Source of the DNA: Verrucomicrobiota bacterium | GTDB lineage: Bacteria; Verrucomicrobiota; Verrucomicrobiia; Chthoniobacterales; JAFAMB01 | Direction of reading: 5' to 3' | Assembly: GCA_019239825.1 (NCBI GenBank) | Contig: JAFAZK010000266.1 | Location: 1-40,938, forward strand | Length of the DNA: 40,938 bases | Shown: positions 1,084 to 22,500 of the stretch, one piece after another | Numbering within the stretch: the first letter of the stretch is position 1 | How the letters are laid out: each line of letters starts with the position of its first letter | Notes under the pieces: generated by a model | What the model was told of the DNA's origin: nothing | The model's input: the letters and a program-made list of their open reading frames with translations, nothing else | The model's database searches: none | Position numbers and translations under genes: made by a program

Positions 1084-2016
1084 TTATAGGTACGGCTCCC
1101 TGTATCCTATACCGGCCATATAGTTGCGAATATCGGCTCCGTAAGTGTTGCGTCCCCAATCATTAAAATAAGCATTATGAGCCAGGAATTCCGCTTCCAT
1201 TCTATCTTTACGTCTTGCTCGATATCGATACCCGTCCGCATCAACAAATCCTAACTCCAGCTTGGACAGATAATCATCTTTCGATCGATAAACATAATGA
1301 CTGATTTCAATATCATATTGATCGGCGTTTACCGCATAGGTACCGCGAACTGGCGTCCCCAGATAATTGACCGCGCTAGTCAGTCCATTGAAAATAAAGT
1401 TATGCGAATTATAATACGCTTTAACCCGCTCGGGCGTTGCGATAACCTTTACATGGTAGTTTGTTGACGGGTCGGAACGAACAAAGTTATTGGTTAAAAG
1501 ACCCGCCGGCAACCTCTCGTGAAATGAGCTGCCAAAATATCGGCAATTTATAGCCAGCGCTGGTGCCGTATCTAGGGTCGACAGTGCATTTAGCAGAATG
1601 CCCTTCTGTCTTTCTATGATAAACTCATCGGCATCGATAAAAGCGACCCAGGTACTGTCTGAGGCAAACCTGTCAAAGAAATGACTGTAACAGCTTGGCG
1701 ATGCCGGAACGGTTTTCCATGGTATTATTGTTACCATACAACGATCGATAAACGGCCTGAGGACGGCCTCGGGAGCGTCGTCGCTGTTATTATCGTAAAA
1801 ATAGAAATGTTCCGCCCCGAGTAGCGTATGGTGGGCGATAAATTCCGGCAGGAATCTCGCTTCATTTTTGATGCGCGTCATGACGGAAAAAAAGAATACC
1901 GGCCGACGAAGCCGCTTATGGTAGGTTAGTGCACGGTTGGGAAGGGCTGGATGGAATATGCCCATCGCGTTATAGCGGAGCTCGCTTCTAAGGCGAAGAA
2001 TCGATTCTTTAAGCAT
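1084..2016 (-). CDS. Glycosyltransferase, GT2/GT92-like (GT-A fold)
   Basis: The 310-residue protein is a probable cytoplasmic glycosyltransferase. It begins its catalytic domain with the family signature MTRIKNEARFLPEFIAHH (from residue 46), then YFYDNNSDD and the metal-binding DADEF motif (D128-E131). This pattern fits the Glyco_tranf_2_4/GT92-like group. There is no signal peptide and no clear membrane segment. The ATG at 2016 is well supported by a strong AGGAGG ribosome-binding site ten bases upstream. It sits 50 bp after a GT-B glycosyltransferase and 4 bp before the FkbM methyltransferase. It likely adds one sugar of the repeat unit; donor and acceptor cannot be told from sequence. Confidence 0.85.
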   Translation of the reverse strand: MLKESILRLRSELRYNAMGIFHPALPNRALTYHKRLRRPVFFFSVMTRIKNEARFLPEFIAHHTLLGAEHFYFYDNNSDDAPEAVLRPFIDRCMVTIIPWKTVPASPSCYSHFFDRFASDSTWVAFIDADEFIIERQKGILLNALSTLDTAPALAINCRYFGSSFHERLPAGLLTNNFVRSDPSTNYHVKVIATPERVKAYYNSHNFIFNGLTSAVNYLGTPVRGTYAVNADQYDIEISHYVYRSKDDYLSKLELGFVDADGYRYRARRKDRMEAEFLAHNAYFNDWGRNTYGADIRNYMAGIGYREPYL

Positions 2017-2066: not shown

Positions 2067-3344
2067 TTAGTCAAAAGACGCCTTGGGTTGTCCTACACTA
2101 CCAAGCCATTTAACCAGGGCCGCGGATTCGTTACGGCTGCAGAGCCAGGTCGTGCGCGGCATCGATAAGACGGCGGTTTCCAGGTCGCGGTATTTTTGCG
2201 GCGTCAGCGTCGTGAAAAAATTTCGCAGCGAATGCGCGAGGGAATCAGTAAGCAGAACGCCGAGGCCGAGTTTTTTGAGGAGCCTGCCGGTTTCGACCGA
2301 GAGCAAAGCGATCGGTACGGCCCCGTACAATCCGCCTTCGTACAGGCGGTTGGGTAGAAGCCAGGATGAATTTAGGCCTGCTTCGAACATATCAATGGCC
2401 CAGTTGAAATGCACATGGCGATAGATGCTTGGTAGATCCTCCGGGTTTCGATAGGGGCCCAGAAATTGTACGCCTGGAACGTTGCCAATGGCTTTTTCGA
2501 AATCGCCGAAAAGATGCTCGAGCGGCTTACCCCGGATAACCACTTGGACGGCGCCTTGGCTTTGTTGGGTAAGCTCGATAAGTAGGCGGAGACTGCGGGT
2601 GCAGCGTATCATTCCGAACCATCCAATCACCCATGGCGGCCCCGGCCTGCGCGAGGACGAGATTTCGTTTGGCGTCGTTTTCTCATTGATGGGGAGCACC
2701 TTGTTCTCGACTAATCGGATAGGGATCTTTAAACGCGCGATGCGCCGAAAGTAATGGTTCACGAAAGCCGGTGAACTGGTTAGGATGGCTGCGGCACGGA
2801 GCGATAATTGGCGCTCGATACAGCGCAAGATCCAGCCAACCGGTCCTCTATCGAGCATGAGCCGATGAATATCGAGACATTCGTAGATTAGCACCGGCTG
2901 CGGTTTGCGATGGCCGCGTCCACACGTAGCGATCACCAGCATATCGAGATTCCTTGCGATAATAACGTCCGTGTCAGTGAATAAAGCTTGGTACCGGCGC
3001 AGGCTGATCAGTTTTTGCGCTACAGAAATGATCCGCTTTAATAACTTGGCATTTAAGGTCTGGCCGAAATCGAGTGCTGCGCATCCGGCGACGCTTTCGA
3101 TAGGCTGCGGCACGCGCCGGAATCCCGCTGCTGTGACTTGGGCTCCTCCGGCGCGTAACATTGCTACCCGTCGGTGGATAGCGGCGTCGGCTAAATCCTG
3201 CGCGAGTACAAGAATTCTAATGGCTCCAGATCTCGGAGGTTCGGTTGCAGAATAATTGCCAACAGTGTTACCGACCGCTCCGACCACCGTTTCCTGATTA
3301 GAAACGCTGTAGGATTCCAAAGACGTATTATCTTGCCTGGTCAC
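2067..3344 (-). CDS. Glycosyltransferase, GT-B fold (GT4-like)
   Basis: The 425-residue protein has a hydrophilic N-terminal extension of about 40 residues, then a Rossmann-like start (IRILVLAQDLADAAIHRRV), a middle containing YECLDIHRL and LTSSPAF, and a second Rossmann domain starting near WVIGWFGMIRC. This two-lobed layout fits a GT-B glycosyltransferase of the GT4/GT1 type. The C-terminal motif NRLYEGGLYGAVPIAL resembles the nucleotide-sugar binding segment in which an acidic residue contacts the donor. The start is a GTG at 3344 with a purine-rich GAAGAAGAAA upstream. It lies 21 bp after the GH16 gene and 50 bp before the next glycosyltransferase. Exact sugar specificity is unknown. Confidence 0.8.
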   Translation of the reverse strand: MTRQDNTSLESYSVSNQETVVGAVGNTVGNYSATEPPRSGAIRILVLAQDLADAAIHRRVAMLRAGGAQVTAAGFRRVPQPIESVAGCAALDFGQTLNAKLLKRIISVAQKLISLRRYQALFTDTDVIIARNLDMLVIATCGRGHRKPQPVLIYECLDIHRLMLDRGPVGWILRCIERQLSLRAAAILTSSPAFVNHYFRRIARLKIPIRLVENKVLPINEKTTPNEISSSRRPGPPWVIGWFGMIRCTRSLRLLIELTQQSQGAVQVVIRGKPLEHLFGDFEKAIGNVPGVQFLGPYRNPEDLPSIYRHVHFNWAIDMFEAGLNSSWLLPNRLYEGGLYGAVPIALLSVETGRLLKKLGLGVLLTDSLAHSLRNFFTTLTPQKYRDLETAVLSMPRTTWLCSRNESAALVKWLGSVGQPKASFD

Positions 3345-4218: not shown

Positions 4219-4965
4219 TTAGGCGACCACACTTCGCCTTCGATACTTGGCAATAATGGGAAGCAGGCGTAGTGCGCCCCAGTAGCGCGGCACGAATTTT
4301 CCGGGTGCATCTAGGCAACGGCAGAGCCACCCCAACATGAATTTATCGGCCCAGGGCGGAACACTAGCTTGTATTCCGGAGAAGAATGCGATCGCTGACC
4401 CCACGCAGATAATCGAGGGGAAATAAGAGAGATTTTCTTTTAGGTAAAGGCCCAGCGGCTCTTGTATTCCGCCCCCGATATTAATGATAACATATCTGGG
4501 CTTGTGCGCCTCGACCCAGGTTAGTAGCTCGAGGTCACAAACCTCTTTGCCTTTAGGGTAATGGGGAGCCACATAGCATTCTTGGGCCGTAACCGGAATG
4601 CCATTTCTATTCAGCCAAGCGCGATTAATTTCGGTCTCCTCCTTCGAAGGCATGATCCATACGGAGCTTCCCGTCGTTCGCAGTTGGTCGCTAGCTAGTA
4701 AAAGGCGAAGGAGCCGTGGCCCAGAGATGCGAGGTAAGTTTTCACCGGTAAAAACTTTCCAGAGGATGACCATGAAAGAACTATCGGTGACGGCAAAATC
4801 GCTTTTCTCGACGGATTGTCGGTAGACCGAGTCGGTGGGTAGTGCGGCCAAAGCCGGTGCCGCTGGTGCCACAATGAATTTGCCTTCGGCACACAGCTTT
4901 AAAAGCTCTGAGGTACTGCCTGTGAAAAAGTTGATTGCCAATACGCTTTTGAAGTTTTGTGCCAT
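4219..4965 (-). CDS. WecG/TagA/CpsF family glycosyltransferase (GT26)
   Basis: The 248-residue protein matches the GT26 family in length and order of motifs: an N-terminal Thr/Asp region with VTDSSFMVI (D61, the proposed catalytic Asp position), RISGPRLLRLLL, a central INIGGGIQEP, then GSAIAFFSG and a basic, amphipathic C-terminus with PPWADKFMLGWLCRCLDAP, as in enzymes that add ManNAc or ManNAcA to undecaprenyl-linked GlcNAc. The C-terminal tail usually contacts the membrane. It lies 27 bp downstream of the ligase/polymerase gene and 52 bp upstream of the GH16 gene. It probably adds the second sugar to the lipid-linked primer; the actual sugar is not readable. Confidence 0.88.
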   Translation of the reverse strand: MAQNFKSVLAINFFTGSTSELLKLCAEGKFIVAPAAPALAALPTDSVYRQSVEKSDFAVTDSSFMVILWKVFTGENLPRISGPRLLRLLLASDQLRTTGSSVWIMPSKEETEINRAWLNRNGIPVTAQECYVAPHYPKGKEVCDLELLTWVEAHKPRYVIINIGGGIQEPLGLYLKENLSYFPSIICVGSAIAFFSGIQASVPPWADKFMLGWLCRCLDAPGKFVPRYWGALRLLPIIAKYRRRSVVA

Positions 4966-4992: not shown

Positions 4993-6201
4993 CTAAGACC
5001 GGATGGAAGAGAGCGCGCGTACGTCCAGTTTGTTAGGGCGTGCTTCGGGGAGACGGCACTTGGAACAGTTAAATACGATCAGCAGGAATACGACGGAGTA
5101 CGTGTTCCCGAAGCTGAATGCCCGGACCTCAAACGCTCCGTATAGGATGTAGGTCGCGATGACGGTTACTGGTAGCGGATCCTCGACGAAACGCTGAATA
5201 GGTTTAAAGACAAAATAGATGGCCGGACTCATCATGAGGAAATAACTCGCCAATCCAACGACGCCCATGTCTGCGAGCATCGCGATATAGGCGTTATGAG
5301 CCGGCAATTGGTCGGGCATCAATAGGGTGTGGCCTTTGAAACCCACACCGAAGATGGGTTCTGCCTCCCAGAGCTGTATAGCAGCAGCCCATAAGTAGTC
5401 GCGTCCGGACCCGCCACTACTGATGCCGCGATATTTATCGTTGATCATGAACAGATGGGCGAAGCTTTGGCCAATCGAATCTAATACATGGGATCCGGTT
5501 AGAGTCATGACGGCGCAAAGGGCCACGCTTCCGAAAAAGGCCAGTAGCAAATAAATAAAGAACTTCTCCGATCGGTGGCTCCATACCCGGGAGACAATCA
5601 CGACTAACAGCGCGACGGTTGCGGCCAGCAGGGAATCTCGCGATTCAAGCACAACCATCGAATAGACGGGTATAAGGGATAGCGCGGTGGCAAAAATTAT
5701 AGACCTAACACTCAGAGCGCCGATGAAGCCGACCAAAGCCATCATGGCAACATAGTTTGGATTCTCCGTCGGAGTAACCCGTCCCCAAGTCATCGGCGCT
5801 GTCACCAGAACAATCGGCAGCAGGACGTTAATAAAAATGGAAATGAAGATCAGCGTCTTGCCCAGATCCAGATCGATTCTCATCGTGATAAGATATAATG
5901 AGAAAAAGAAGAGCAGGGAGCTGGTGATGTTACCTACGATGAAAACCCAGTCGTATCGTGGCGCATTAAAAAGGTAACTTGCCAAGATGCTGAGATTCAG
6001 CAGTAAGACACCGAGTGAAACTAACGGAGATACAGATGCTATGACGGGCTTCTTGTAGGTCAAGAAAATCAGGGCGATGGCTCCAGCCGCCAATGGAAAA
6101 AAAAGTGGAGCGGCACTTTCTGCACCCGTGAAGTGCATAATGTAAAAGGAAGCAGAGGCCCAGATGGCGACGACGATTTCGTTTAGCCAGCGATTAGTCA
6201 T
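4993..6201 (-). CDS. O-antigen ligase / Wzy-type polymerase (multi-pass)
   Basis: The 402-residue protein is strongly hydrophobic with about ten to twelve membrane segments and the Wzy_C/O-antigen ligase pattern: an SRDSLLAATVALLV segment and, after a periplasmic loop, GVGFKGH followed by AHNAYIAMLADMGVVGL. It either polymerises repeat units (Wzy) or ligates polymer to a lipid (WaaL); these cannot be separated by sequence alone. Operon context with a flippase and a Wzc-like protein favours polymerase. The longest frame starts at 6258 inside the flippase gene. The ATG at 6201 forms an ATGA overlap with the flippase stop, so translational coupling is likely and I chose that start. Confidence 0.85.
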   Translation of the reverse strand: MTNRWLNEIVVAIWASASFYIMHFTGAESAAPLFFPLAAGAIALIFLTYKKPVIASVSPLVSLGVLLLNLSILASYLFNAPRYDWVFIVGNITSSLLFFFSLYLITMRIDLDLGKTLIFISIFINVLLPIVLVTAPMTWGRVTPTENPNYVAMMALVGFIGALSVRSIIFATALSLIPVYSMVVLESRDSLLAATVALLVVIVSRVWSHRSEKFFIYLLLAFFGSVALCAVMTLTGSHVLDSIGQSFAHLFMINDKYRGISSGGSGRDYLWAAAIQLWEAEPIFGVGFKGHTLLMPDQLPAHNAYIAMLADMGVVGLASYFLMMSPAIYFVFKPIQRFVEDPLPVTVIATYILYGAFEVRAFSFGNTYSVVFLLIVFNCSKCRLPEARPNKLDVRALSSIRS

Positions 6202-7718
6202 TTCGCGGGTTCCTCTGGCCGGCCATTGAAAAAGGCGCCGAGCGCGGAAACGGCCCAAGTTCTCGCCTCGGACAAGAGATCGTGACCGATATAGAAGTAG
6301 AGAGCAGCGATCACGAGAATCCAGAGAGCGGAAAGGGCGAGCGTGCTGGCGTAAGCCACGGTGCTTGATTGCCGCAAGAAATCGAAGGGCTCATAGCGTA
6401 CGAAAAGCCACAAACATGTACCCAATAAGGCGCTCGCCAGCGCAGCCACAGAGCCTCGGACCCCGGCCGAGGTGGTGGTTTTTGGGATCCGCAGCATGAA
6501 CAAAAGTGAAATCGTGACCTCAGCGACTAGAATCAAGATCAGCCAAAGCAGTACGGATTTTATTAGGAGAGCGACGGCCGCGAAAATTAGCAAACTGATG
6601 ATGTAGAGGTATTGTCGTTTGGCGATTTCGTGTACCTTTCCGTGCCGCAGCATCAAAGCCTGCATGATTTGGTAGGCATAAAGCGGACTAGCCAGGCCGA
6701 AGGTGATGGCGATTTGCCCGTAGAGAGTTGGGTCGGATCCGACCAACCAAAAAGAGGCTAGCCGAAAATTATCGGCAACGACTATTCCGGTGATCAGAGA
6801 AGCGAAAAACGCCGCAAACAGTACACAGAGTGTGAACTGAGTTTCCGCCAGGGCTGGCTGGTGGGTTTGCTTAAGCCATACGTATTGTACCGAGGCGTAA
6901 CGCGACAGTTGCAGAATCATCTGGCGCGCGGTCCCGAACAACGCCCGCAGCGCGACATAGATGGTGACAGCGACTGGCTGGGCGATGGCAGAGAGCACCA
7001 GGACAGGCACGTATGCACGCATCCAACTGGATGCGGGGTCGGCCATAGTGTAGCGCGCGATGCTTAGCGTTCTGAAGGACAGCCCGGGCGGCATTGGCTC
7101 CAAGAGGCGCAAGAGCCCGAGCCGGCGGCAGAGCCGACCTTGCTGCGCAATGGCGAACAAGCCGCTCAAACACCAGATCCAGGCTAAGATCTCTGGGGGG
7201 GAATGAAAGAAGGTTAGGGCGACCATGGCTAGGCATAACCGCGCGGCCGCTAGCAAAAGGTAACCAGCTTCGGCCTGACGGTACAACTCAAGCGAATCCA
7301 GGTACATCACGCGGACGTACACGATGGTTTCCGAGGCGACTCCGGCGATCAGGGCAGCGCGCCACAGGTAGTAAGGGGTCTTTGTGTAAAGGCAATTGTA
7401 AAATAGGTCTAGACCGATCAAAATTACGGTGGCTACGCCAATGAGGATCCTGATCCAGGCCCACAGATGTTGGAAGTCGATCTTGGCTTGCTTGTCGGCA
7501 GGATTGTGCCCGTAACGGATCAATTCCGCATGGCCGGCGGTACGCAATCCGCAATCCGAGACACTGACAATGGTAGCGATGGCCAGCATGGTGTACCAAT
7601 GAGCCGTGGCGATATTCCCCCAGATCCGAATCTGGATGGGAAGCAGTACAACCTGATTTAGGAGCAATACGCCTTGAGTCAGCATCGTTAGTGAAAAAAA
7701 CTGGAAGAACTTCTGCAC
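6198..7718 (-). CDS. Wzx-like polysaccharide flippase (MOP superfamily)
   Basis: The 506-residue membrane protein has about twelve to fourteen hydrophobic helices spread evenly along its length, and a length typical of Wzx/polysaccharide biosynthesis transporters. The N-terminus (FFSLTMLTQGVLLLNQVVLLPI) and the conserved-looking VSDCGLRTAGHAELI loop fit the MOP flippase layout, in which undecaprenyl-PP-linked repeats are moved to the periplasmic face. The start is a GTG at 7718, six bases after the co-polymerase stop; an in-frame ATG at 7685 is an alternative. The stop overlaps the next ATG by four bases. The assignment rests on topology, length and neighbours rather than on a diagnostic motif. 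Confidence 0.8.
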   Translation of the reverse strand: MQKFFQFFSLTMLTQGVLLLNQVVLLPIQIRIWGNIATAHWYTMLAIATIVSVSDCGLRTAGHAELIRYGHNPADKQAKIDFQHLWAWIRILIGVATVILIGLDLFYNCLYTKTPYYLWRAALIAGVASETIVYVRVMYLDSLELYRQAEAGYLLLAAARLCLAMVALTFFHSPPEILAWIWCLSGLFAIAQQGRLCRRLGLLRLLEPMPPGLSFRTLSIARYTMADPASSWMRAYVPVLVLSAIAQPVAVTIYVALRALFGTARQMILQLSRYASVQYVWLKQTHQPALAETQFTLCVLFAAFFASLITGIVVADNFRLASFWLVGSDPTLYGQIAITFGLASPLYAYQIMQALMLRHGKVHEIAKRQYLYIISLLIFAAVALLIKSVLLWLILILVAEVTISLLFMLRIPKTTTSAGVRGSVAALASALLGTCLWLFVRYEPFDFLRQSSTVAYASTLALSALWILVIAALYFYIGHDLLSEARTWAVSALGAFFNGRPEEPAK

Positions 7719-7724
7719 GGATTT

Positions 7725-10112
7725 TTAGATTTTATCGGCGGGCGTGGCCTCGGTGGTCCGCGAGCGAGCGCCAGTGGTGGCTCTCCAGAGCTTCGCGCTG
7801 GGCTTCAGCTTTTGTTTCTCCCGACGATTGGTGTAGCAGCGGGCGTATCCGGAAAAGTAATGGTGTTTACCAGAACGCAGCGGCATTCGGTTAAAGACGA
7901 AGCCATCCAGGGTGCTACCCGCCTGCGCGAGTAGACTGCAGGCCCTGGCGACGGCGGCGGTCGGGGTTTTGATAGCACGGACGACTAAGCAAACCGATTC
8001 AACGTGTTTGGATAGGAGTTGAGTATCGCTCACGGCGTTGACCGGCGGGCTATCCAGCACAATCTGAGCGAAGTGCGTCCCTAGTTCGTCTAATAAGCTA
8101 ACCAAGTCGCATGAAGCGAATAGTTCCGACGGGCTCGAGGTCCATCGACCCGCGGGGAGCAGAAAAAGATTCTCGATGCCGGTCGGGCTGCAGCAATCTA
8201 CAGCCTTTGCTCGGCCGGTGAGACAATCGGTTAGTCCCTGTGCTTTCGTGTCAGGTAGTGCAATATTAGTTAGTCTAGGCCGCCGGATGTCGGCATCGAT
8301 CAAGAGCGTCCGCTGGCCTGTCTGGGCAAGCGCTACTGAATAGTTTAGGCAGCAAAAGCTTTTGCCTTCCTTGGGATTGGCACTGGTAAAAAGGATCGTC
8401 TTACGTGTCCTGTGACGCCCGAGTAAAGAGATCGCTGTTCGCAGCGAGCGGAATGCTTCCGCTTCGTACGAAGCCGGCTGACTGGTCAAGACTGGTTCTT
8501 TCTTGCGACTTTTTCGCTTCGATTCTGGAACGGCCGCTAAAGCGGTAAGCCCCAACATTCCTTCCGCCTGATCGATCGTCCGGATAGAATTGTCGGCCAA
8601 ATCGATAATAACCACCAGGCCGCATCCGCCGGTGATGCCAATTAAGAGCGCCAGCAAGAGAGTCTTCAATGGGTCTGGTTCGGCTGCTGTTCCCACCAGT
8701 GGAGCTGACACAACGCGGATAGCTTCGCTCGCAATTCGGTTCGCCATATTGGCGCTGTTAGTGTTAGTCAGTTTCACATCGGGTAGAGAGGGTCCGCGGG
8801 CTATGTCGACGTCATGAACCTGAGCGGTGGGGGCGGGGGTCGGGTGGGGTTCGACTGTCTTTTGCTCCTGCTGCAGTGCGTTCACTAGCTCGGCTTCTGC
8901 GGCTTTCTTGGTCTCGTAAGTTTGAGTCACTGTATTTGCCGCTTCGAGTATGGCTCTATTTAGCTCTTGTTTGAGTCTTATGACCTGACCCCTTGCGTGA
9001 CGCCTGGCTTGTGTTTCACTAAGTTGCTCCCGCAGATTTGCGACTTGTGGAGTCGAGGCAATACTGGACAAGGTTAACAACTCGGCCGGGTTCTTTGATT
9101 GCTTGATGGCTGCGACGTCCGCGTCCAATTTCATGCGCTCAGTCCTGGCTTGAGTGAGTTTGAGATTCAATTCTCTGATCTTATCGCTGTTTACGTTCTG
9201 GTGGTTTGCAGGCGAGACTGATCCGTGATCTTCCGGAGACTTTCGACTTGTCTGTTCTGGGTCTGGGAGCTTCGCTTTAAGTTGGTCGACTTCTTGACCG
9301 GGAACATTGATCGCGTGAAGTCCTTGAGAATTCTGATCTATGAATGCTTGGGCGATGGCCTCGGCTAGCCGTGCTGCTCGCTTAGGATCCGTATCCTTAA
9401 CACTCACATCGATGAGCCTGGTACCATGGCGGACGACGGCTTTGACTCTCGACCGAAACTTAGCGACAAGTTCGCTGTCCAAGTAAACCGAGCCATCTTT
9501 TTTCGGTGGAGCGAATGAAGGATCCTTTTCCAGTCCGTTAGATTTTAGAACGCTTAACAGTAGTGTGTCGTTTAGTATCGCTTGCTCGACCGTCTTAATA
9601 TTTTCGTCCAGGTTGACGTCTTGCTCGGCTCCGTTATCGGCAGTATCAAAGTCCTGGCCGTTGCTAATTCGTGTGGTCTCGTAACGCTTTTTTTCAAACT
9701 CATAAGTTGCTGAGCGTTCGTTCGCAGCGATCTGGGCTTTCTGGAAATCAAGGGCAGAGATTAGCCCTCGTTGGGCCAATCGTTCGTCTGCTTGCAACTC
9801 CGCCATTGCGCTATCGCGGTCGGCTTGCGCTTTGGTCAAGGTAGATTGGCGCTCCAACAATTCTGCCTCCAGCGTGGATTGTAGGCGCATGAGCTTGGCC
9901 AGGCCGCTTTTGCTCTCAACCTGGAGGACGGTGCGAGATTCATACAATTTCGGGGTTAGTCGCAAATAGATGACTGCCGCGCACAAACAGAACACGGAAA
10001 AAAGGACGATCAGCCATGCCTTCGATCGGAACAGTTCAAAAAAATAACCAAGACCGAATGATGGGCCCGAGTCTGAGTTATCGAATTGTGACGAGACGGC
10101 TCTTGTGTGCAT
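7725..10112 (-). CDS. Wzc-like polysaccharide co-polymerase with BY-kinase domain and unusual coiled coil
   Basis: This 795-residue inner-membrane protein combines a Wzz-type periplasmic region with a cytoplasmic bacterial tyrosine kinase. Membrane segments lie near residues 33-51 and 484-504. The kinase shows EAFRSLRTAI (552-561), Walker A TSANPKEGKS (576-585), Walker A' LLIDADIRRP (603-612) and Walker B IVLDSPP (684-690). The C-terminus has only three spaced tyrosines (HHYFSGYARCY) instead of a dense cluster. In the periplasmic part the usual order YESRTVLQVE ... ENIKTVEQAI is split by about 80 residues of heptad-like sequence (70-150) resembling an HlyD-type hairpin. A second coiled coil spans about 310-420, followed by a Pro/His-rich linker where a GNVR-like segment is expected. 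It should control chain length and couple synthesis to export. Confidence 0.88.
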   Translation of the reverse strand: MHTRAVSSQFDNSDSGPSFGLGYFFELFRSKAWLIVLFSVFCLCAAVIYLRLTPKLYESRTVLQVESKSGLAKLMRLQSTLEAELLERQSTLTKAQADRDSAMAELQADERLAQRGLISALDFQKAQIAANERSATYEFEKKRYETTRISNGQDFDTADNGAEQDVNLDENIKTVEQAILNDTLLLSVLKSNGLEKDPSFAPPKKDGSVYLDSELVAKFRSRVKAVVRHGTRLIDVSVKDTDPKRAARLAEAIAQAFIDQNSQGLHAINVPGQEVDQLKAKLPDPEQTSRKSPEDHGSVSPANHQNVNSDKIRELNLKLTQARTERMKLDADVAAIKQSKNPAELLTLSSIASTPQVANLREQLSETQARRHARGQVIRLKQELNRAILEAANTVTQTYETKKAAEAELVNALQQEQKTVEPHPTPAPTAQVHDVDIARGPSLPDVKLTNTNSANMANRIASEAIRVVSAPLVGTAAEPDPLKTLLLALLIGITGGCGLVVIIDLADNSIRTIDQAEGMLGLTALAAVPESKRKSRKKEPVLTSQPASYEAEAFRSLRTAISLLGRHRTRKTILFTSANPKEGKSFCCLNYSVALAQTGQRTLLIDADIRRPRLTNIALPDTKAQGLTDCLTGRAKAVDCCSPTGIENLFLLPAGRWTSSPSELFASCDLVSLLDELGTHFAQIVLDSPPVNAVSDTQLLSKHVESVCLVVRAIKTPTAAVARACSLLAQAGSTLDGFVFNRMPLRSGKHHYFSGYARCYTNRREKQKLKPSAKLWRATTGARSRTTEATPADKI

Positions 10113-10130
10113 TACGATTATAAATGTGAG

Positions 10131-12752
10131 TTAGTTGTCGGGGAGGCTTGATTTGATGCACTCCGTGACTTTCTTGGCGAGGATTCGGACGGTCGTATGG
10201 TCGGAAAAGAGTGTGGTGTGACTGCCGGGCACGTCATGAACTTCCACGGCGCCCTGTGCGACTGAGCTCCAGCCCAAGTCAGCCTGGACCTCGAAGTCGA
10301 TAGGTTGATTTAGTGAGCGGAACAGAGTGATCTTGCCAGCGTACGGACGCGGCTCATAAACGAGCGAAGCACAGCAGTGAGCCGTTCGCATTTGCAGAGC
10401 CAGAAGCTCTGCTGGATCACCGTGTCCGCGCATCGCCAACATCTGATACCGTTCGTTCCACTTGAGAAGCTGAGCGCCCAACTTGCCTCCGATATGCGCT
10501 GCCGAGTATTCGAAGATATCTTCTAGAGTGACTCCCTTGGACAACAGACGCGGGATCCTGTAGGGAGCCACTTGCATCCAGGATCGCGTCCGTGGGCGAT
10601 TGCTGGGATTAGCAGTGTCAAAGAGGGCTAAAAAGGCAACCTCTTGGCCGACAGCGCGTAATTCGCAGGCGATCTCGTAGCTCAGCAGTCCACCAAACGA
10701 ATAGCCGCCCAGTAAGTAAGGACCACGGGGTTGGACATTACGGATTTCCTGAAGGTAACAGGCCGCGATTGCTTCGACCGAAGTCTCAGTGCAAGGGTTA
10801 CCGTCTAGTCCCTGTGCTTGGAAACCGTAGAAGGGTTGTTCGTTGCCGAGTAACTCGGAAAGTTGCCGATAAAAAAGGACATTGCCGTCCCCACCGTGAA
10901 TGGCAAAGAACGGCGGATTCTTTCCTTGCAATTGGATGGCAACAAGCGGTCTCCAGTCCCGCTCAGAAGGTCCGCGGACGATCTTCTGTGCCAGCTTCTC
11001 GACGGTCGGCGCCTCAAAGAGCGACGCCAGCGGGAGCCGTTTTCCGAGCGCCTTATCTATCTCCGCAAATATTAGTACCGCCTGCAGAGAGTTGCCACCG
11101 AGCTCGGAGAAGAAGTTGTCGGTAATCCCAATCGCGTGAAGTTTGAGTACTCTTTCCCAGATACCGATGAGTTGAGTTTCGAGTGCATTCCGCGGCGCCA
11201 CTGGTCCATTCTTGCGACCGACAATCGCCGGTTTTGGGAGAGCTCGCCGATTGATCTTACCATGCGACGTGAGGGGGAGTTTATCTAGGAAGACCACCAC
11301 GAAAGGAACCATGTAGGCTGGTAGCGTCTGTTGGGCGTGCTCGCGTAGGTCATCTGAGCTAATGCCGGCAGCAACGACGTAAGCCAGCAGGCGATCCTCA
11401 TCTACCACTACGACGCAGTCGCGCACCGCCGGGTGTTTTCGCAAGACCACCTCGATTTCGCCCAACTCGATTCGCAGCCCATGCAACTTAACTTGATGGT
11501 CTAGCCGCCCGTGAAATTCGACGGCTCCATCTTTCCGGAGGCAGACCAGATCGCCGGTCTTGTAAAGCTGGCCTTCGCCAAATGGATTGGGCACGAAGGC
11601 CTTGTAGGTTAGATCGGGCCGGTGCAAGTAGCCGAGCCCCAGCTGTGGGCCTCCTATATATAGTTCACCCGGGGCGGTAGGTGCGACCGGCTTCATCTGG
11701 CCGTCGAGGATATAGAGTTGTACGTCTGGCAGCGGCAAGCCGATGGGGATGTTTGGGAGTAACTCGTCGCCTGCGCGGCATTTCCATGTTGTAACAGCTA
11801 CCGTCGTTTCTGTTGGCCCGTACGAGTTGTAAAATTCGCAGTCCGGTAATTTGGCGAAAATGCGTGCCACCAAATCGGCAGGCAGAGTTTCGCCGATACA
11901 AAACACTCGCTTCAACGAGTGACACGAATCGGCGTTAGGATGCTCGAGAAATAGTGCTAGGGAGGACGGAACAAAAACCAGCGTCGAAATCTTCTGCGCA
12001 TTGATTTGCGCGACCAGATAATCCGGGTCGGCTTCGAATCCTGGGCGGGCCAACACCATCGCTGCGCCCGTCCCCAAAGACCAAAAGAGTTCCGGGATCG
12101 AGCAATCGAACGTGTAAGCCGCCCTCTGCATGAAGCGATCTTCTGGGCGCAAAGGAAAAGCTTCTTGCATGCGGGACAGGAAGCTGTACACCGCGCGGTG
12201 CGGGATCATTGCTCCTTTGGGTTTCCCGGTCGAACCGGAGGTATACAGGACATAAGCCAAACTTTCCGGGCTAAGTTCGGCAGGAATGGGGCGCCCAAGT
12301 GCCGGGGATTTCTCTTCGAGCCCGAGAATCGGGATCTGGAGTTCGGAAGGCAACTTTCTTCTGAGCTGATCCTGCAATAGGATGGCGGCGGGTCTAGCCT
12401 CCTCGATGATTACCTCAAGTCGCTGGCTCGGGTCTGCCGGATCTAGGGGCAAGTAGGCTGCGCCGGCTTTGAGGATGGCCAATATGCCAATAACCATTTC
12501 CGGAGAGCGTTGGGCCGCCAGAGCAACCAGAGCGCCGGGTCCGACACCCGCGGCCTGTAAACGACAGGCCACTGCGTCCGACGCATTATCTAATTCCTTA
12601 TAGCTGAGCGGCCGGTCCTGGTGGATTATCGCTATGTTTTCTGGCGTCTCAGCTGCCTGTTTGGTAAAGGTCTGATGAAGCAGTATGCCGGTTGGCGTAG
12701 CCGCTTTGCACTGAGGGGCGTCAACAGCTAGTAAACCGGTAGATGGTTTCAT
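10131..12752 (-). CDS. Single-module NRPS-like protein, domains A-T-TE
   Basis: The 873-residue protein activates a carboxylic acid, most likely an amino acid, as an adenylate and loads it on its own carrier domain. The A domain (about 25-515) shows A3 YTSGSTGKPKG (170-180), A5 NSYGPTE (309-315), A7 YKTGDL (397-402), A8 from G415, and A10 SHGKINRR with Lys499. The carrier domain has LGGNSL with the phosphopantetheine serine S555. The thioesterase (about 610-865) has GYSFG with S685, D712 and H845, a complete triad. There is no condensation, reductase or oxidase domain. Hand alignment to the GrsA pocket gives D216, C217, P220, F260, F284, I286, S310, V318, A319, K499. The ATG overlaps the epimerase stop by four bases. 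A role in aminoacyl decoration of the glycan is inferred. Confidence 0.9.
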   Translation of the reverse strand: MKPSTGLLAVDAPQCKAATPTGILLHQTFTKQAAETPENIAIIHQDRPLSYKELDNASDAVACRLQAAGVGPGALVALAAQRSPEMVIGILAILKAGAAYLPLDPADPSQRLEVIIEEARPAAILLQDQLRRKLPSELQIPILGLEEKSPALGRPIPAELSPESLAYVLYTSGSTGKPKGAMIPHRAVYSFLSRMQEAFPLRPEDRFMQRAAYTFDCSIPELFWSLGTGAAMVLARPGFEADPDYLVAQINAQKISTLVFVPSSLALFLEHPNADSCHSLKRVFCIGETLPADLVARIFAKLPDCEFYNSYGPTETTVAVTTWKCRAGDELLPNIPIGLPLPDVQLYILDGQMKPVAPTAPGELYIGGPQLGLGYLHRPDLTYKAFVPNPFGEGQLYKTGDLVCLRKDGAVEFHGRLDHQVKLHGLRIELGEIEVVLRKHPAVRDCVVVVDEDRLLAYVVAAGISSDDLREHAQQTLPAYMVPFVVVFLDKLPLTSHGKINRRALPKPAIVGRKNGPVAPRNALETQLIGIWERVLKLHAIGITDNFFSELGGNSLQAVLIFAEIDKALGKRLPLASLFEAPTVEKLAQKIVRGPSERDWRPLVAIQLQGKNPPFFAIHGGDGNVLFYRQLSELLGNEQPFYGFQAQGLDGNPCTETSVEAIAACYLQEIRNVQPRGPYLLGGYSFGGLLSYEIACELRAVGQEVAFLALFDTANPSNRPRTRSWMQVAPYRIPRLLSKGVTLEDIFEYSAAHIGGKLGAQLLKWNERYQMLAMRGHGDPAELLALQMRTAHCCASLVYEPRPYAGKITLFRSLNQPIDFEVQADLGWSSVAQGAVEVHDVPGSHTTLFSDHTTVRILAKKVTECIKSSLPDN

Positions 12753-13792
12753 CGCAGTACTGTTTCCTTGAGTCGGCGAGGTGGTTTAATCGCAGTCGCA
12801 GCTCCCATTTCCAAGAGGCGGTTCTCGCTTATCTGGTCATAGATCCAGTGATAGGTAAGCTCCAACCCGTCTCGCAATGACGTCGACGGTTCCCAGCCAA
12901 GCACCTTTCGGGTTAACGTGTTGTCGCTGTTGCGCCCGTTTACACCTTTTGGCGCTGAAAGGTTGTATCTTCTCTCCAGCTTGACTCCTGCGATGTCCTC
13001 TACGATGTCGACTAGCTGATTAATCGAAACTAGTTCGCTACTACCTATATTGAGCGGATCAGCGAAGTCGCTTTCCATCAGCATCCGGCTGCCCTTCACA
13101 CAGTCAGTAATGTACATAAAGCTGCGCGTTTGTTGGCCGTCGCCCCAGATCTCGATTTCGGGTCTAGCAGAAAGTTTTGCTTCGATCACCTTTCGGCAGA
13201 TGGCCGCTGGAGCTTTCTCGCGTCCACCCTGGTAGGTTCCCTGCGGGCCGTACACATTGTGATAACGCGCCATTCGCGTAATCAGTCCGTAATCCTCACG
13301 GAAATGGCGGCTCATCCGCTCGCTGAAGAGCTTTTCCCACCCGTACCCATCCTCCGGTAAAGCGGGATAGGCGTCTTCTTCTTTAAGCGCAGTTACGTTC
13401 CAGTCCTTCTGCTTATCGCCGTTGTAGACGCAAGCCGAGGAAGAGAAGAAAAACCGTTCTACCCCGGAGTCCTTCGCCGCAATGAGCAGGTGTGTATTAA
13501 TCAATACACTGAGCATGCAAGCGCCCTTGTTTAACTCGATAAAACCCATCCCTCCCATGTCCGCAGCAAGGTTATAGACAAGCGCGACGTGGTCGGTGGC
13601 TTGCCGGCAGGCATCCAAGCTTTTCAGGTCCAGGGTTAAGTTTTCGGCGTCGGGAAACAGCTGGTACCATTCCGAAAGCGGCTTTATGTCTACCGCCCGG
13701 ACCTCGAAACCATCGCGGCAAAACGCTTTTACGAGATGGCCGCCAATAAAACCACCAGCACCTGTTACCAGAATCCGATTATTTTTGCTCAT
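12749..13792 (-). CDS. GDP-mannose 3,5-epimerase-like extended SDR
   Basis: The 347-residue NAD-dependent sugar-nucleotide epimerase closely follows plant GME as I recall it: GAGGFIG nucleotide-binding loop (11-17), NLAADMGGMGFI, SSSACVY with the catalytic-position Cys121, Y150 and K154 (DGYGWEK), the substrate motif GGREKAPAAICRK with K193, WGDGQQTRSF, and GRNSDN (286-291). In plants this enzyme turns GDP-D-mannose into GDP-L-galactose (and some GDP-L-gulose). Here it is the first gene of the tight operon and overlaps the NRPS-like gene by four bases, so it probably supplies an unusual GDP-hexose for the polymer. No ascorbate genes lie nearby. The activity is a strong family inference; product identity is not proven by sequence. 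Confidence 0.9.
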   Translation of the reverse strand: MSKNNRILVTGAGGFIGGHLVKAFCRDGFEVRAVDIKPLSEWYQLFPDAENLTLDLKSLDACRQATDHVALVYNLAADMGGMGFIELNKGACMLSVLINTHLLIAAKDSGVERFFFSSSACVYNGDKQKDWNVTALKEEDAYPALPEDGYGWEKLFSERMSRHFREDYGLITRMARYHNVYGPQGTYQGGREKAPAAICRKVIEAKLSARPEIEIWGDGQQTRSFMYITDCVKGSRMLMESDFADPLNIGSSELVSINQLVDIVEDIAGVKLERRYNLSAPKGVNGRNSDNTLTRKVLGWEPSTSLRDGLELTYHWIYDQISENRLLEMGAATAIKPPRRLKETVLR

Positions 13793-13845
13793 TTCTTCGT
13801 TCTTTTTTTGTTAAATCATAACCTGCCCACTGGGAGACCTTGTTT

Positions 13846-13907
13846 TCACATTGTGAGTGTCTATTAACGTTGCCTGGTAGGGTTAGCTGGGACCGGTATT
13901 GAATACC
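13846..13907. promoter_or_regulatory. Two short palindromes in the operon leader
   Basis: In the gap ahead of the epimerase gene there are two near-perfect dyads: TCACA-T-TGTGA (13846-13856) and GGTATT-G-AATACC (13895-13907). They lie 54-115 bp upstream of the epimerase ATG, where a promoter for the ten-gene run would be expected. They could be operator sites for a repressor or activator. I could not find a convincing -35/-10 pair, so this is tentative. Confidence 0.3.
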
Positions 13908-14033
13908 CCTCTACTGATTCTCATGGCGTCCGTTAGGCGAGTAGTAGATAGGTGACACCGATTTCAGTAAAGGTTGCGTCCGTGCATATCCAAGTTGTTA
14001 GCAGAAATGCTGATGGGGTTTAGATCGCGACTA

Positions 14034-15530
14034 TCAATCTGCGTTTTTATGTTTAAAAAAAGTGAGCAACATAGTCTGGAGATCGAAGCGCAGGTTCCAG
14101 TGCTCGACGTAATAAAGGTCGTAGGTAATTCGTTCTGTTAAGTCCGTGTCACCACGGAGACCGTTCACTTGCGCCCAGCCGGTCATGCCCGGTTTAACGG
14201 TGTGGCGAGCGTTGTAATGGGGAATCTCCTGCTTGAAGTTGCGAATAAGTTCCGGTCGTTCTGGCCGCGGTCCGACCAGGCTCATGTCGCCTTTGAGCAC
14301 ATTCCAAAATTGAGGGGTCTCGTCGATGTTCCACTTGCGCATGAACTTGCCGATCCGAAGGCGACGTGGGTCGTCTTTGATAGACCAACCGGCCTTACCG
14401 TCCGGCTCGGCGTCCAGGCGCATGCTCCGTATCTTGAGCATATCGAAAGGCTTACCATTCCTGCCGGAACGTCGTTGCCGGTAGAAGATGGGTCCCGGCG
14501 ACTCAAGGTAAAGTACTGCGCCGAAAACCGCGATTAGCGGTAAGGACAGCAACACTCCGACTATACCTCCAATGATATCAAACAGCCGTTTAACCACTCG
14601 GTTGAACAAGCGATCGAGAGGTAGGCGGGATACGCTAAGAATGGGAATCCCGTTTAGCGTTTCCAGATATAGCCCGGAAACCAAGATGCTGAAATAGGAA
14701 GGTACAACCTTAAATTGGACCATTTCCATCTCGCAGAGGGACGCTAACGAATCCAGGTGCTTGACGCCCAGGTTAGCGTCGACAATGAGTACGATATCGA
14801 TCGCCAGGGTTTTGATGAGGTCGGGAATATCGCTGTACCGACCCACGTTCGGAAGATCGTCCGGTGGTTCCTTCTGAAACTCTCCCTCCGGAATGGGGAC
14901 ACAGCAAACTACATCGTAAGGATTGGACGCATCACTTTCAATGATGGCACGCAACCTTTGGGCATACGCAGTCCAACCGACGGTGAGGATTCTGTGCCGG
15001 TGCTTGTGCACTATAAATTCTCGTTGCAGGTAACTGTAAAGGCACCGGCGCCAGGCATAGAGGCCGACTATCGCCGTGCTGGTCGCTAAGGCGACATAAG
15101 CCCGGGAAATGGGAGGACGAAAATTAAATAGAAGAGAGAATCCCAGGAAACCTGCGCCCCAAAGTAAGCAGGGGCTGACTACCTGTTTGAGCCGTGAATG
15201 CCCTTGGAGTAACCACCCGGCATCATAGGTTTGCTTCTGTGCGAATAAGAGGATCAGCGAAACAGAACCGCAAATGATGTAGTTGAAATAGTCGCCTAAC
15301 ATTATCTCTTGCGCGTCTACACCGAACGCGCGCAAGGGGGTATGAAAACGTAGCCAAAAGGCGGCGAGTTGAGATATAAAAACCACTCCGGCGTCGCCGG
15401 CAAGGCAGAGCAAAGCAATTCGGTAAGGAAATTCCCTGCATTCCTCGGTTAAGCTGTGGTCAGCCAGATTTAGCGCAGGTGGCATGAATTCTCTAACTTC
15501 ATTCCGGTACGCGTCTTCCAAGGCTTTCAT
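14034..15530 (-). CDS. Undecaprenyl-phosphate sugar phosphotransferase (polyprenyl glycosylphosphotransferase)
   Basis: The protein (498 residues from ATG 15530; a TTG at 15560 would add ten) starts polymer synthesis by moving a sugar-1-phosphate from a nucleotide sugar to undecaprenyl phosphate. It has several N-terminal membrane segments, a central nucleotide-binding-like domain (HRILTVGWTAYAQRLRAII), and a C-terminal catalytic domain with LESPGPIFYRQRRSGRNGK, KIRSMR, NIDETPQFWNVLKGDMSLVGPRPE and KPGMTGWAQVNG. This is the WcaJ/PssA-like architecture (PF02397). Glucose or galactose is the usual sugar but this cannot be read here. It lies 241 bp upstream of the epimerase gene on the same strand and may be transcribed separately or as the operon's first gene. 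Confidence 0.9.
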   Translation of the reverse strand: MKALEDAYRNEVREFMPPALNLADHSLTEECREFPYRIALLCLAGDAGVVFISQLAAFWLRFHTPLRAFGVDAQEIMLGDYFNYIICGSVSLILLFAQKQTYDAGWLLQGHSRLKQVVSPCLLWGAGFLGFSLLFNFRPPISRAYVALATSTAIVGLYAWRRCLYSYLQREFIVHKHRHRILTVGWTAYAQRLRAIIESDASNPYDVVCCVPIPEGEFQKEPPDDLPNVGRYSDIPDLIKTLAIDIVLIVDANLGVKHLDSLASLCEMEMVQFKVVPSYFSILVSGLYLETLNGIPILSVSRLPLDRLFNRVVKRLFDIIGGIVGVLLSLPLIAVFGAVLYLESPGPIFYRQRRSGRNGKPFDMLKIRSMRLDAEPDGKAGWSIKDDPRRLRIGKFMRKWNIDETPQFWNVLKGDMSLVGPRPERPELIRNFKQEIPHYNARHTVKPGMTGWAQVNGLRGDTDLTERITYDLYYVEHWNLRFDLQTMLLTFFKHKNAD

Positions 15531-15584
15531 TTTGGTTTTGCAACTTACTGTTCTAATCAATGGGTGGTTGGACGCTGGTCGACA

Positions 15585-20218: not shown

Positions 20219-20911
20219 CTAAGATTCAAGAATGGCCGTATGGGCATGCCGAATATCCGTGGCTTGGTCGCGCCAGAACGAATCCTCTCCAATATTCGTT
20301 GCATGGTCGCCGATTCGTTCAAGAGCCCGGCTGATGAAGATCAGGTCCAAGTACCCGGGCACGTTCTCCGAGTGAGTGGTAGCCCGGACCACAAGCTTTT
20401 CGCCAATATCCGTCGTGAGTGCGTCTAACTCCTTGTCCCGAGGTTTTAGGGTTCGTGCGAGTGCGCAATCACTTTCTGCAAAAGCGCGTATGCTATCGTG
20501 AAAAATCCCTAAAGCCAGCCGGTAAGGCGGCTCAAGTAAAGCGACTTCGGCCAGCGAGAACCTGCTGTTCAGACGCTTCGCTCTCCGGGCGATGGTCACG
20601 GATTGATCGCCAATCCGTTCCAGGTTTGTGCTGACTTTCATCGCGGAAACCACCTGCCTCATATCGGAGGCAACCGGATGAAATCGAACTAACAATTTAA
20701 CTCCGTCTTGGTCGACCTGCTTTTCAAGCATGTCGATCTGCTCATCTTCAGCAATTACTTGGTCGCAGATTTCGTTGTTGCGAGTTAGAAGCGCTTCGAA
20801 GGCGGTCTGAAGACTCCGGTCGGTGAGGCTAGACATCATTAGAACATCGTTCCTCACGCCATAAAGAGCAGTATCGTAGCTGCTAAGGATATGCTTTGTT
20901 TGCTCCAGCAT
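20219..20911 (-). CDS. phoU: PhoU-like phosphate regulatory protein
   Basis: The 230-residue, all-helical protein has two PhoU repeats with the metal-binding acidic motifs: EDEQIDMLEKQVDQDGVKLL with the DMRQV that follows, and in the second half FISRALERIGDHATNIGED. The first half has NLERIGDQSVTIARRAK. PhoU joins the Pst phosphate transporter to the PhoR sensor and keeps the Pho regulon off when phosphate is plentiful. No pst or phoBR genes are visible here, so this copy is detached from its usual operon. It is divergent from the ClC gene across a 215 bp gap. Confidence 0.93.
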   Translation of the reverse strand: MLEQTKHILSSYDTALYGVRNDVLMMSSLTDRSLQTAFEALLTRNNEICDQVIAEDEQIDMLEKQVDQDGVKLLVRFHPVASDMRQVVSAMKVSTNLERIGDQSVTIARRAKRLNSRFSLAEVALLEPPYRLALGIFHDSIRAFAESDCALARTLKPRDKELDALTTDIGEKLVVRATTHSENVPGYLDLIFISRALERIGDHATNIGEDSFWRDQATDIRHAHTAILES

Positions 20912-21126
20912 TTCGTTTTTTAAGTTTAATGTATTTCTGACGGCTTTACAAAACGATCCGTCGCGCTGCGCGCGATCTAACGAAGGGTGTTAGAATCTTG
21001 TTGTGCTAAATATCTTCTTTCAAGAATGGGCAGAGTTTTTCTACGCTGTAGAAGGTATCTTGAAATCGCACTCTGGTCCGCTGACGTAATTGTGAGCGAC
21101 GTAACATTATAACAGCCGGCAAGCCA

Positions 21127-22500
21127 ATGCAGGAATGGACGGACGAAGCCCAAGGAAGTTCCGCAGTGGGCCAGCCACCCACGCCGCCCCCCGGCTATCA
21201 TGGTCACGATCGCTGGCTACTTTTATTGGCAGCACTAGTCGGTGTCGTGGGAGGCTTGGCCACGGTTGCCTTTCATGAAGGAATGGCGTTTACCGAAAAT
21301 CTTGCTACCGGCCATCCCGGAAGTCTCGTGAGCGCGTCCGAGGGATTGGCGCCCTGGCGGCGCGCCATCACGCCGGCCCTAGGCGGCCTGGTAGCGGGAG
21401 CGATTCTCCTCCTGACACGGCGGGTAACCAAAGGAAAAAAACAACCTGATTACCTTGAAGCGATCGCCATCGGAGACGGCCGCCAAGATGTTCGCGGAAC
21501 CCTTTTGCGGAGTGCATCCTCACTTTGTACCATCGCATCCGGTGGCTCGATTGGCCGGGAAGGCGCCATGGTACAACTGGCTGCCGCCACCGGCTCCTGG
21601 GTTGGCCAATTGTTCCGATTCCGGGGTGATCAACTAAGGCTGCTGTTAGCCTGCGGCGCAGCTGCTGGCTTTGCATCCGCTTATGACGCTGCCATATCCG
21701 GCGCAATTTTTATTGCGGAGGTGGTCTACGGCACTCTGCTCATCCGGCGGCTAGGGCCGCTGATGGTGGCCTCGGTGACAGCCAACGTTACGGTTCATCA
21801 AGTCCTCGGCTATGAACCTGTTTACCAAATCCCCACACTCCACGTGAGTTCGCCGTGGGATTTACCGTTTTTTCTCTTGTTAGGAGGCCTGCTCGGCGCC
21901 TTGGCCCCGGTCTTTATGGGGTTGTTGGACGGAACTCGGCGTTTGATTAGCCGGCTGCCAGTTAATCTCCCGTTTAAGCTCGCTTTGGGCGGGTTGCTGG
22001 TGGGCCTAATCTCGGTCTGGCGTCCTGAAGTTTGGGGCAACGGTTACAGCGTTGTTAATGGGGTACTGCACACCCCCTGGTCGGCAATCTTAGTGCTCTG
22101 GGTTTTGATCGCCAAGGTTTTTGCGACCGCCGCGACTTCAGGTTCAGGGGCAGTGGGCGGTGTGTTTACTCCCACTATTTTCGTGGGAGCCATGCTCGGG
22201 CTTTTAGCTGGTGATTTTTTTAATTGGTGTTGGCCCGGTTCCTCATTGCCTACGGTCTACGCCGTGGTCGGAATGGGCGCCTTTCTAGCCGCCACCACCC
22301 ATGCGCCGTTAATGTCGTTTCTCATCGTGTTCGAAATGACTTTGGAATACCAGCTGGTCCCGGCGCTGATGCTGGCTTGTCTTACTGCCTACCATGTCTC
22401 CCGGGCCATCCGCAGTGAATCCATCTATCACGACGCACTCCATCGCGGGACCGCTATCGAGGAAGAATCCTGCGTCGCGCCAAGCCAGCCACCGAGTTGA
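21127..22500 (+). CDS. ClC-family chloride channel or Cl-/H+ antiporter
   Basis: The 457-residue protein has ten or more membrane helices and the ClC signatures: SGGSIGREGAMVQ (from residue 138, with the gating glutamate E145 kept, although the usual GREGP proline is alanine) and GAVGGVFTPTIFVGAMLG (341-358), which fits the GxFxPxL pore motif. There are no cytoplasmic CBS domains. The family moves chloride through the inner membrane and often helps with acid stress. It starts at ATG 21127, divergent from phoU. A fold-back repeat lies downstream, before the stress protein gene. Confidence 0.92.
   Translation: MQEWTDEAQGSSAVGQPPTPPPGYHGHDRWLLLLAALVGVVGGLATVAFHEGMAFTENLATGHPGSLVSASEGLAPWRRAITPALGGLVAGAILLLTRRVTKGKKQPDYLEAIAIGDGRQDVRGTLLRSASSLCTIASGGSIGREGAMVQLAAATGSWVGQLFRFRGDQLRLLLACGAAAGFASAYDAAISGAIFIAEVVYGTLLIRRLGPLMVASVTANVTVHQVLGYEPVYQIPTLHVSSPWDLPFFLLLGGLLGALAPVFMGLLDGTRRLISRLPVNLPFKLALGGLLVGLISVWRPEVWGNGYSVVNGVLHTPWSAILVLWVLIAKVFATAATSGSGAVGGVFTPTIFVGAMLGLLAGDFFNWCWPGSSLPTVYAVVGMGAFLAATTHAPLMSFLIVFEMTLEYQLVPALMLACLTAYHVSRAIRSESIYHDALHRGTAIEEESCVAPSQPPS

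Follow-up and report, generated by a model that had tools for sequence, protein, structure and literature searches.

The window analysed here, a stretch of 40,938 nucleotides from a Verrucomicrobiota bacterium, carries on its minus strand a polysaccharide operon with an embedded gene for an NRPS-like protein composed of adenylation (A), carrier (T) and thioesterase (TE) domains (Table 1, genes in operon order). Of the parts of a Wzx/Wzy locus, the initiating transferase, Wzc and Wzy are assigned by family, and the flippase candidate by hydrophobicity alone. The latter displays 8-12 hydrophobic segments in two Kyte-Doolittle scans, has no match in Pfam or NCBIfam and an AlphaFold model with a pLDDT of 50; it is 86% conserved in a sister species, and no homologue was found in the other 55 relatives searched. 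The initial annotation had described these neighbours as building, flipping and polymerising a lipid-linked glycan: family matches uphold the building and the polymerising, but flipping (no family) and the glycosyltransferase at 3344..2067 (E 0.007) are less secure than claimed. Its statement that no MBOAT or DltB-like acyltransferase is visible in the window is supported for the operon, in which profile searches recognised no acyltransferase; one MBOAT is encoded elsewhere in the genome, unlinked. Further along the window (20219-22500), a PhoU-domain gene and a voltage-gated chloride channel gene are divergent neighbours.

Table 1. Genes of the polysaccharide operon, with positions in the window.
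Position	Strand	Predicted product	Basis
14034..15560	(-)	WcaJ-type polyprenyl-phosphate hexose-1-phosphate transferase, initiating enzyme	PF02397, TIGR03025 (376 bits)/TIGR03023
12749..13792	(-)	GDP-mannose 3,5-epimerase	PDB sequence match to GME, E about 1e-90
10131..12752	(-)	A-T-TE synthetase (adenylation, adenylation-C, carrier, thioesterase)	873 aa; Pfam, motifs, catalytic residues, pocket code DCPVFISVA
7725..10112	(-)	Wzc-type chain-length protein with tyrosine autokinase	PF02706, TIGR01007
6198..7718	(-)	Putative Wzx-like flippase, polytopic	Hydrophobicity; no family match
4993..6258	(-)	Wzy_C polymerase/O-antigen ligase family protein	PF04932, E 2e-14
4219..4965	(-)	WecG/TagA/CpsF glycosyltransferase	PF03808
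3366..4310	(-)	GH16 glycoside hydrolase	PF00722
2067..3344	(-)	Putative GT4-like glycosyltransferase	Weak PF13579, E 0.007
1084..2016	(-)	GT92/GT2-like glycosyltransferase	PF01697, PF13704
303..1082	(-)	FkbM-family methyltransferase	PF05050, TIGR01444

Both Pfam and motif reading agree with the earlier description of complete A, T and TE motifs without a condensation (C) domain. Pfam places AMP-binding at residues 29-376 (E 1e-84), AMP-binding_C at 432-499, PP-binding at 527-589 and Thioesterase from 614 onwards (E 3e-22), and finds no condensation domain anywhere in the 873 aa, so that the protein has the NRPS-like A-T-TE layout. The adenylation motifs (YTSGSTGKPKG in the A3 loop, the A10 lysine within PLTSHGKIN) and the carrier serine motif LGGNS are intact, and the thioesterase shows a GYSFGG nucleophile motif, the histidine of GSH845 and D712, the last assigned by eye. 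In a sequence search the TE domain matches those of EntF and Pks13 (E 4e-12 for Pks13); its AlphaFold model has a pLDDT of 38. By eye, no signal peptide or membrane span is evident, and the protein should therefore act in the cytoplasm, before export. Pocket residues were taken from a MAFFT alignment to GrsA (its sequence checked against 1amu), which gave the code DCPVFISVAK for the window protein and DFPDFGLVAK for its sister. Asp at GrsA position 235 is the mark of amino-acid substrates in A domains, and its presence together with the A10 lysine assigns the A domain of the window protein to the amino-acid-activating type. The code fits no canonical signature known to us and differs from that of the sister at 4 of 9 positions; a substrate call from it would thus be unsafe, and the substrates of the two proteins may differ. 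The only phosphopantetheinyl transferase match in the genome is a 163-aa frame, a size that makes an AcpS-type enzyme probable; an NRPS carrier would be expected to need an Sfp-type one. The same genome encodes a second NRPS protein in a frame of about 1374 aa (G000:C220 4582-7158, L046), 35% identical over the A-T-TE; its code is glycine-like, and a glycan gene was not detected in its vicinity.

The sister, a Verrucomicrobiota MAG of the same genus (G006, contig JAFAHI010000591.1), keeps the gene order from WcaJ to GT92 at 70-88% identity, after which FkbM genes follow. Between the two A-T-TEs, which are 78% identical, dN/dS amounts to 0.176 (A 0.17, T 0.13, TE 0.18), with the other operon genes in the same range; such a value, similar in each domain, indicates that purifying selection has kept the A-T-TE working. 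One could argue that the protein is left over from an NRPS and hitch-hikes in an operon in which it has no role, given that its ortholog is restricted to one genus and that C-domain remnants in relatives show how such modules erode; yet its motifs are intact, dN/dS is 0.13-0.18 in every domain and its position is conserved in the sister operon, so that we hold this explanation to be highly improbable. The ortholog occurs in only two MAGs, both of this genus: no close one exists among 384 genomes of the class, in which the matches are NRPS modules of roughly 35-46% identity, and a scan of genome contigs returned only the sister MAG plus one distant ligase. Between WcaJ and the epimerase, the sister carries a NusG/RfaH-like antiterminator gene (L045 13551-14117, minus strand) at a place where the window has a 241-bp gap alone (13793-14033); the closest homologue in the window genome lies on another contig (C195) and is 64% identical. 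Beyond its operon end the sister encodes a second GH16-like protein (L084 9174-9989), similar to the operon's own.

A specific partnership between A-T-TE and epimerase, as emphasised by the initial annotation, did not withstand these comparisons. The epimerase itself is nearer to solved GDP-mannose 3,5-epimerases (GME; 8sg0 and 2c59, E about 1e-90) than to other SDR epimerases (E 4e-92 against 5e-29 for the next family), and the four-base overlap reported between its stop and the A-T-TE start can be read in the sequence as ATGA. However, a 105-bp gap replaces this overlap in the sister, and the epimerase is present without A-T-TE in other genera: of 13 further genomes with it among 57 relatives, the 12 whose loci were read have no A-T-TE there, and most have a glycosyltransferase-like gene in reach. 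Moreover, no GME homologue was detected in the A-T-TE operon shared by two other genomes (G366 and G408), and the operons of family f116 (both described below) have nothing closer than an SDR epimerase, distant at about 26% identity. Because of the gap in the sister and the epimerase loci devoid of A-T-TE in the order, the pairing looks incidental, and by these genome comparisons the glycan operon acquired the A-T-TE as an addition at genus level, with no special tie to the epimerase.

The pairing of A-T-TE with glycan genes, on the contrary, does not look incidental as judged from gene neighbourhoods. In G366, a C-less A-T-TE gene lies directly between those of an FkbM protein and a Wzx-family flippase, with GT2 and GT4 genes after the flippase and an initiating sugar transferase upstream of the A-T-TE; G408 has the same operon, its A-T-TE retaining part of a condensation domain. 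A phylum-wide search further retrieved two genomes outside the class, G656 with three tandem A-T-TEs and G522 with one, in an operon of the order GT4-GT4-hexapeptide-GT2-epimerase-GT2 followed by one to three A-T-TEs. A search for their family (f116) matched 15 of 29 genomes, and among the 14 loci read, glycosyltransferases stand beside the A-T-TE in 12, the other two being on contigs broken near it. A-T-TE copy number (one to three) and pocket codes vary in f116 while the glycosyltransferases remain constant, as expected of variable decoration; the codes, read as Gly-, Pro- and Val/Leu-like, are DVQFIAQVI in most, then DILQLGMIW or DILQLAMIW, DVYLMGGVN or DVFLMGAVN, DAFWLGGTF, and DAFLLGGTF. 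The proposed link of the A-T-TE to polysaccharide synthesis is therefore strengthened, with the operon kept in the sister and distant A-T-TEs found in conserved glycan operons elsewhere in the phylum. Finding the gene pair apart from polysaccharide genes in most relatives had been named as an observation that would speak against it, and here the result is divided: the close ortholog is always with such genes (2/2), but stand-alone A-T-TEs mostly are not. Those of L049-L054, L096-L101, L116 and L118 have no convincing glycan gene nearby in tblastn with a limited set of queries, by which some could be missed. As most other stand-alone A-T-TEs are without detected glycan genes, the layout by itself does not imply a glycan role. 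The A-T-TE/sugar-transferase pair of G182 (L047) was not counted, as a 67%-identical relative in G470 is without an adjoining sugar transferase.

A second explanation, in which the A-T-TE makes a free small molecule (a dimerised amino acid, a diketopiperazine or a cyclic ester) and has its place in the operon solely in order to be co-expressed, seems unlikely to us: no small-molecule tailoring or export gene was recognised in the operon, repeated placement in glycan operons of separate lineages would be unexpected, and the window protein has Asp235, which to our knowledge the keto-acid type of fungal A-T-TEs does not. This residue and the setting in a glycan operon distinguish the protein from the fungal enzymes, and the former speaks against an identity as a furanone/atromentin-type synthetase. 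What the small-molecule explanation has in its favour is the lack of detected glycan genes near most stand-alone A-T-TEs of the phylum, and the precedent of the fungal non-reducing NRPS-like synthetases for atromentin, furanone or polyporic acid, which have the same three-domain layout and dimerise two aromatic keto acids into small molecules (PMC9047271).

Among other known systems, NRPS termination modules (C-A-T-TE, such as EntF) resemble the window protein in the order of A, T and TE, in motifs, amino-acid-type pocket and place in the tree, but the latter has no condensation domain or partner modules and is set in a polysaccharide operon. DltABCD would be a functional analogue, in that adenylation and a carrier there load an amino acid (D-alanine) for a surface polymer, teichoic acid; in the window, however, T and TE are fused to A, no DltB or DltD was recognised nearby, and the protein scores below the curated DltA cut-offs (298 vs 559.85 bits and 307 vs 476 bits). 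The TE of Pks13 is a sugar acyltransferase that places mycolate onto trehalose, the role proposed here for the TE it matches, although Pks13 works with a polyketide acyl chain, a PKS module and a free disaccharide as acceptor. Exosortase-A-associated EPS loci encode an AMP-forming ligase (TIGR03098), a carrier protein and hydrolases, and so combine the same activities in an EPS locus, there as separate proteins; the window protein, with 182.8 bits against a cut-off of 592.35, is not this ligase. Our literature searches, with partial coverage of the literature, found no described A-T-TE in a Wzx/Wzy locus, in agreement with the initial annotation.

In a tree of 55 A-T-TE regions, glycan-locus proteins appear in three places among ordinary NRPS termination modules; this is a quick tree with SH-aLRT support only, whose well-supported branches force at least two changes. 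Eroded N-terminal condensation-domain remnants are visible in L095 8126-11581 (G408) and in L097 7406-10318 (G402), and in one relative half of the domain is still there. The placement in the tree and the remnant in G408 indicate that glycan-locus A-T-TEs derive from NRPS modules, and the three positions together with this remnant suggest more than one recruitment of NRPS end modules into glycan operons. A proline-like code, with Gln as residue 322, is common to two of the three glycan-locus groups; their A domains either converged on it or inherited it from one ancestor. For the proteins of f116 and G366 with the code DVQFIAQV-, proline or a related amino acid is the predicted substrate.

We propose, with a probability of about one half, that the window protein descends from an NRPS termination module (C-A-T-TE), has lost the condensation domain and today adds an amino acid as decoration to the polysaccharide of the operon. 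The A domain would adenylate the amino acid and load it onto the carrier pantetheine, from which the TE serine S685 would take it over as an acyl-enzyme; the TE would then pass it on, in the cytoplasm and ahead of export and polymerisation, to a hydroxyl group on a sugar, either in the undecaprenyl-diphosphate-linked repeat unit or in a sugar nucleotide. An acceptor is to be expected, since ATP would be spent to no purpose if the unmodified aminoacyl carrier were hydrolysed, and with no acyltransferase recognised in the operon, we infer that a sugar hydroxyl receives the amino acid from the TE itself. Ester formation with a hydroxyl is known for the TEs of EntF and Pks13. The earlier notion of a glycan-linked amino-acid loader thus gains support from the separate operons and the amino-acid-type pocket while losing its emphasis on the epimerase, and the probable task of the A-T-TE is to put an amino acid on the sugar chain. 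Several points weigh against this proposal, namely the ortholog confined to one genus, the stand-alone A-T-TEs mostly without glycan genes, the lone, probably AcpS-type phosphopantetheinyl transferase, the differing pockets and the unlinked MBOAT; the TE could also be a simple hydrolase. In this respect, the A-T-TE might only load the amino acid, like DltA/DltC with a built-in proofreader; its TE would then only edit, hydrolysing what has been loaded onto the carrier in error, and attachment to the glycan would fall to another transferase, encoded inside or outside the operon. TE domains can indeed edit, one MBOAT is encoded elsewhere in the genome, and in G656 an Acyl_transf_3 protein is encoded upstream of the tandem A-T-TEs, at a distance of two genes; but the other f116 loci yielded no such gene, profile searches recognised no acyltransferase in the window operon, and the TE keeps its catalytic residues and evolves like the remainder of the protein (dN/dS 0.18), which makes this division of labour rather improbable.

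Returning to decoration by the TE itself, the recurrence of the arrangement in two or more further lineages of Verrucomicrobiota suggests that bacterial polysaccharides are decorated in a way not yet described. A wider proposal, to which we give somewhat less than even chances, is that in Verrucomicrobiota NRPS termination modules have repeatedly become enzymes that aminoacylate glycans autonomously, the TE delivering to lipid-linked repeats and copy number and codes setting a variable pattern. If true, amino acids would reach bacterial surface polymers by a route derived from NRPSs as well as by Dlt, the specificity codes of glycan aminoacylation would be partly readable, TE domains would be usable as sugar aminoacyltransferases, and enzymes of secondary metabolism would be tied to the diversity of surface glycans in a phylum with few cultured members. 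The system is built of known parts, and its interest is that it is recurrent and testable.

Three tandem A-T-TEs with Gly-like, unassigned and Pro-like codes lie inside the glycan operon in two f116 loci (L117 8076-16594 in G656, L131 7375-15248 in G752). The TE nucleophile is a cysteine (G-x-C-x-G) in the f116 A-T-TEs and in those of L047 and L048/L095, and a serine in the window and sister proteins. Directly after the A-T-TEs, most f116 loci encode a conserved LamG-VanZ protein (L117 16477-17616, L119 3607-4770).
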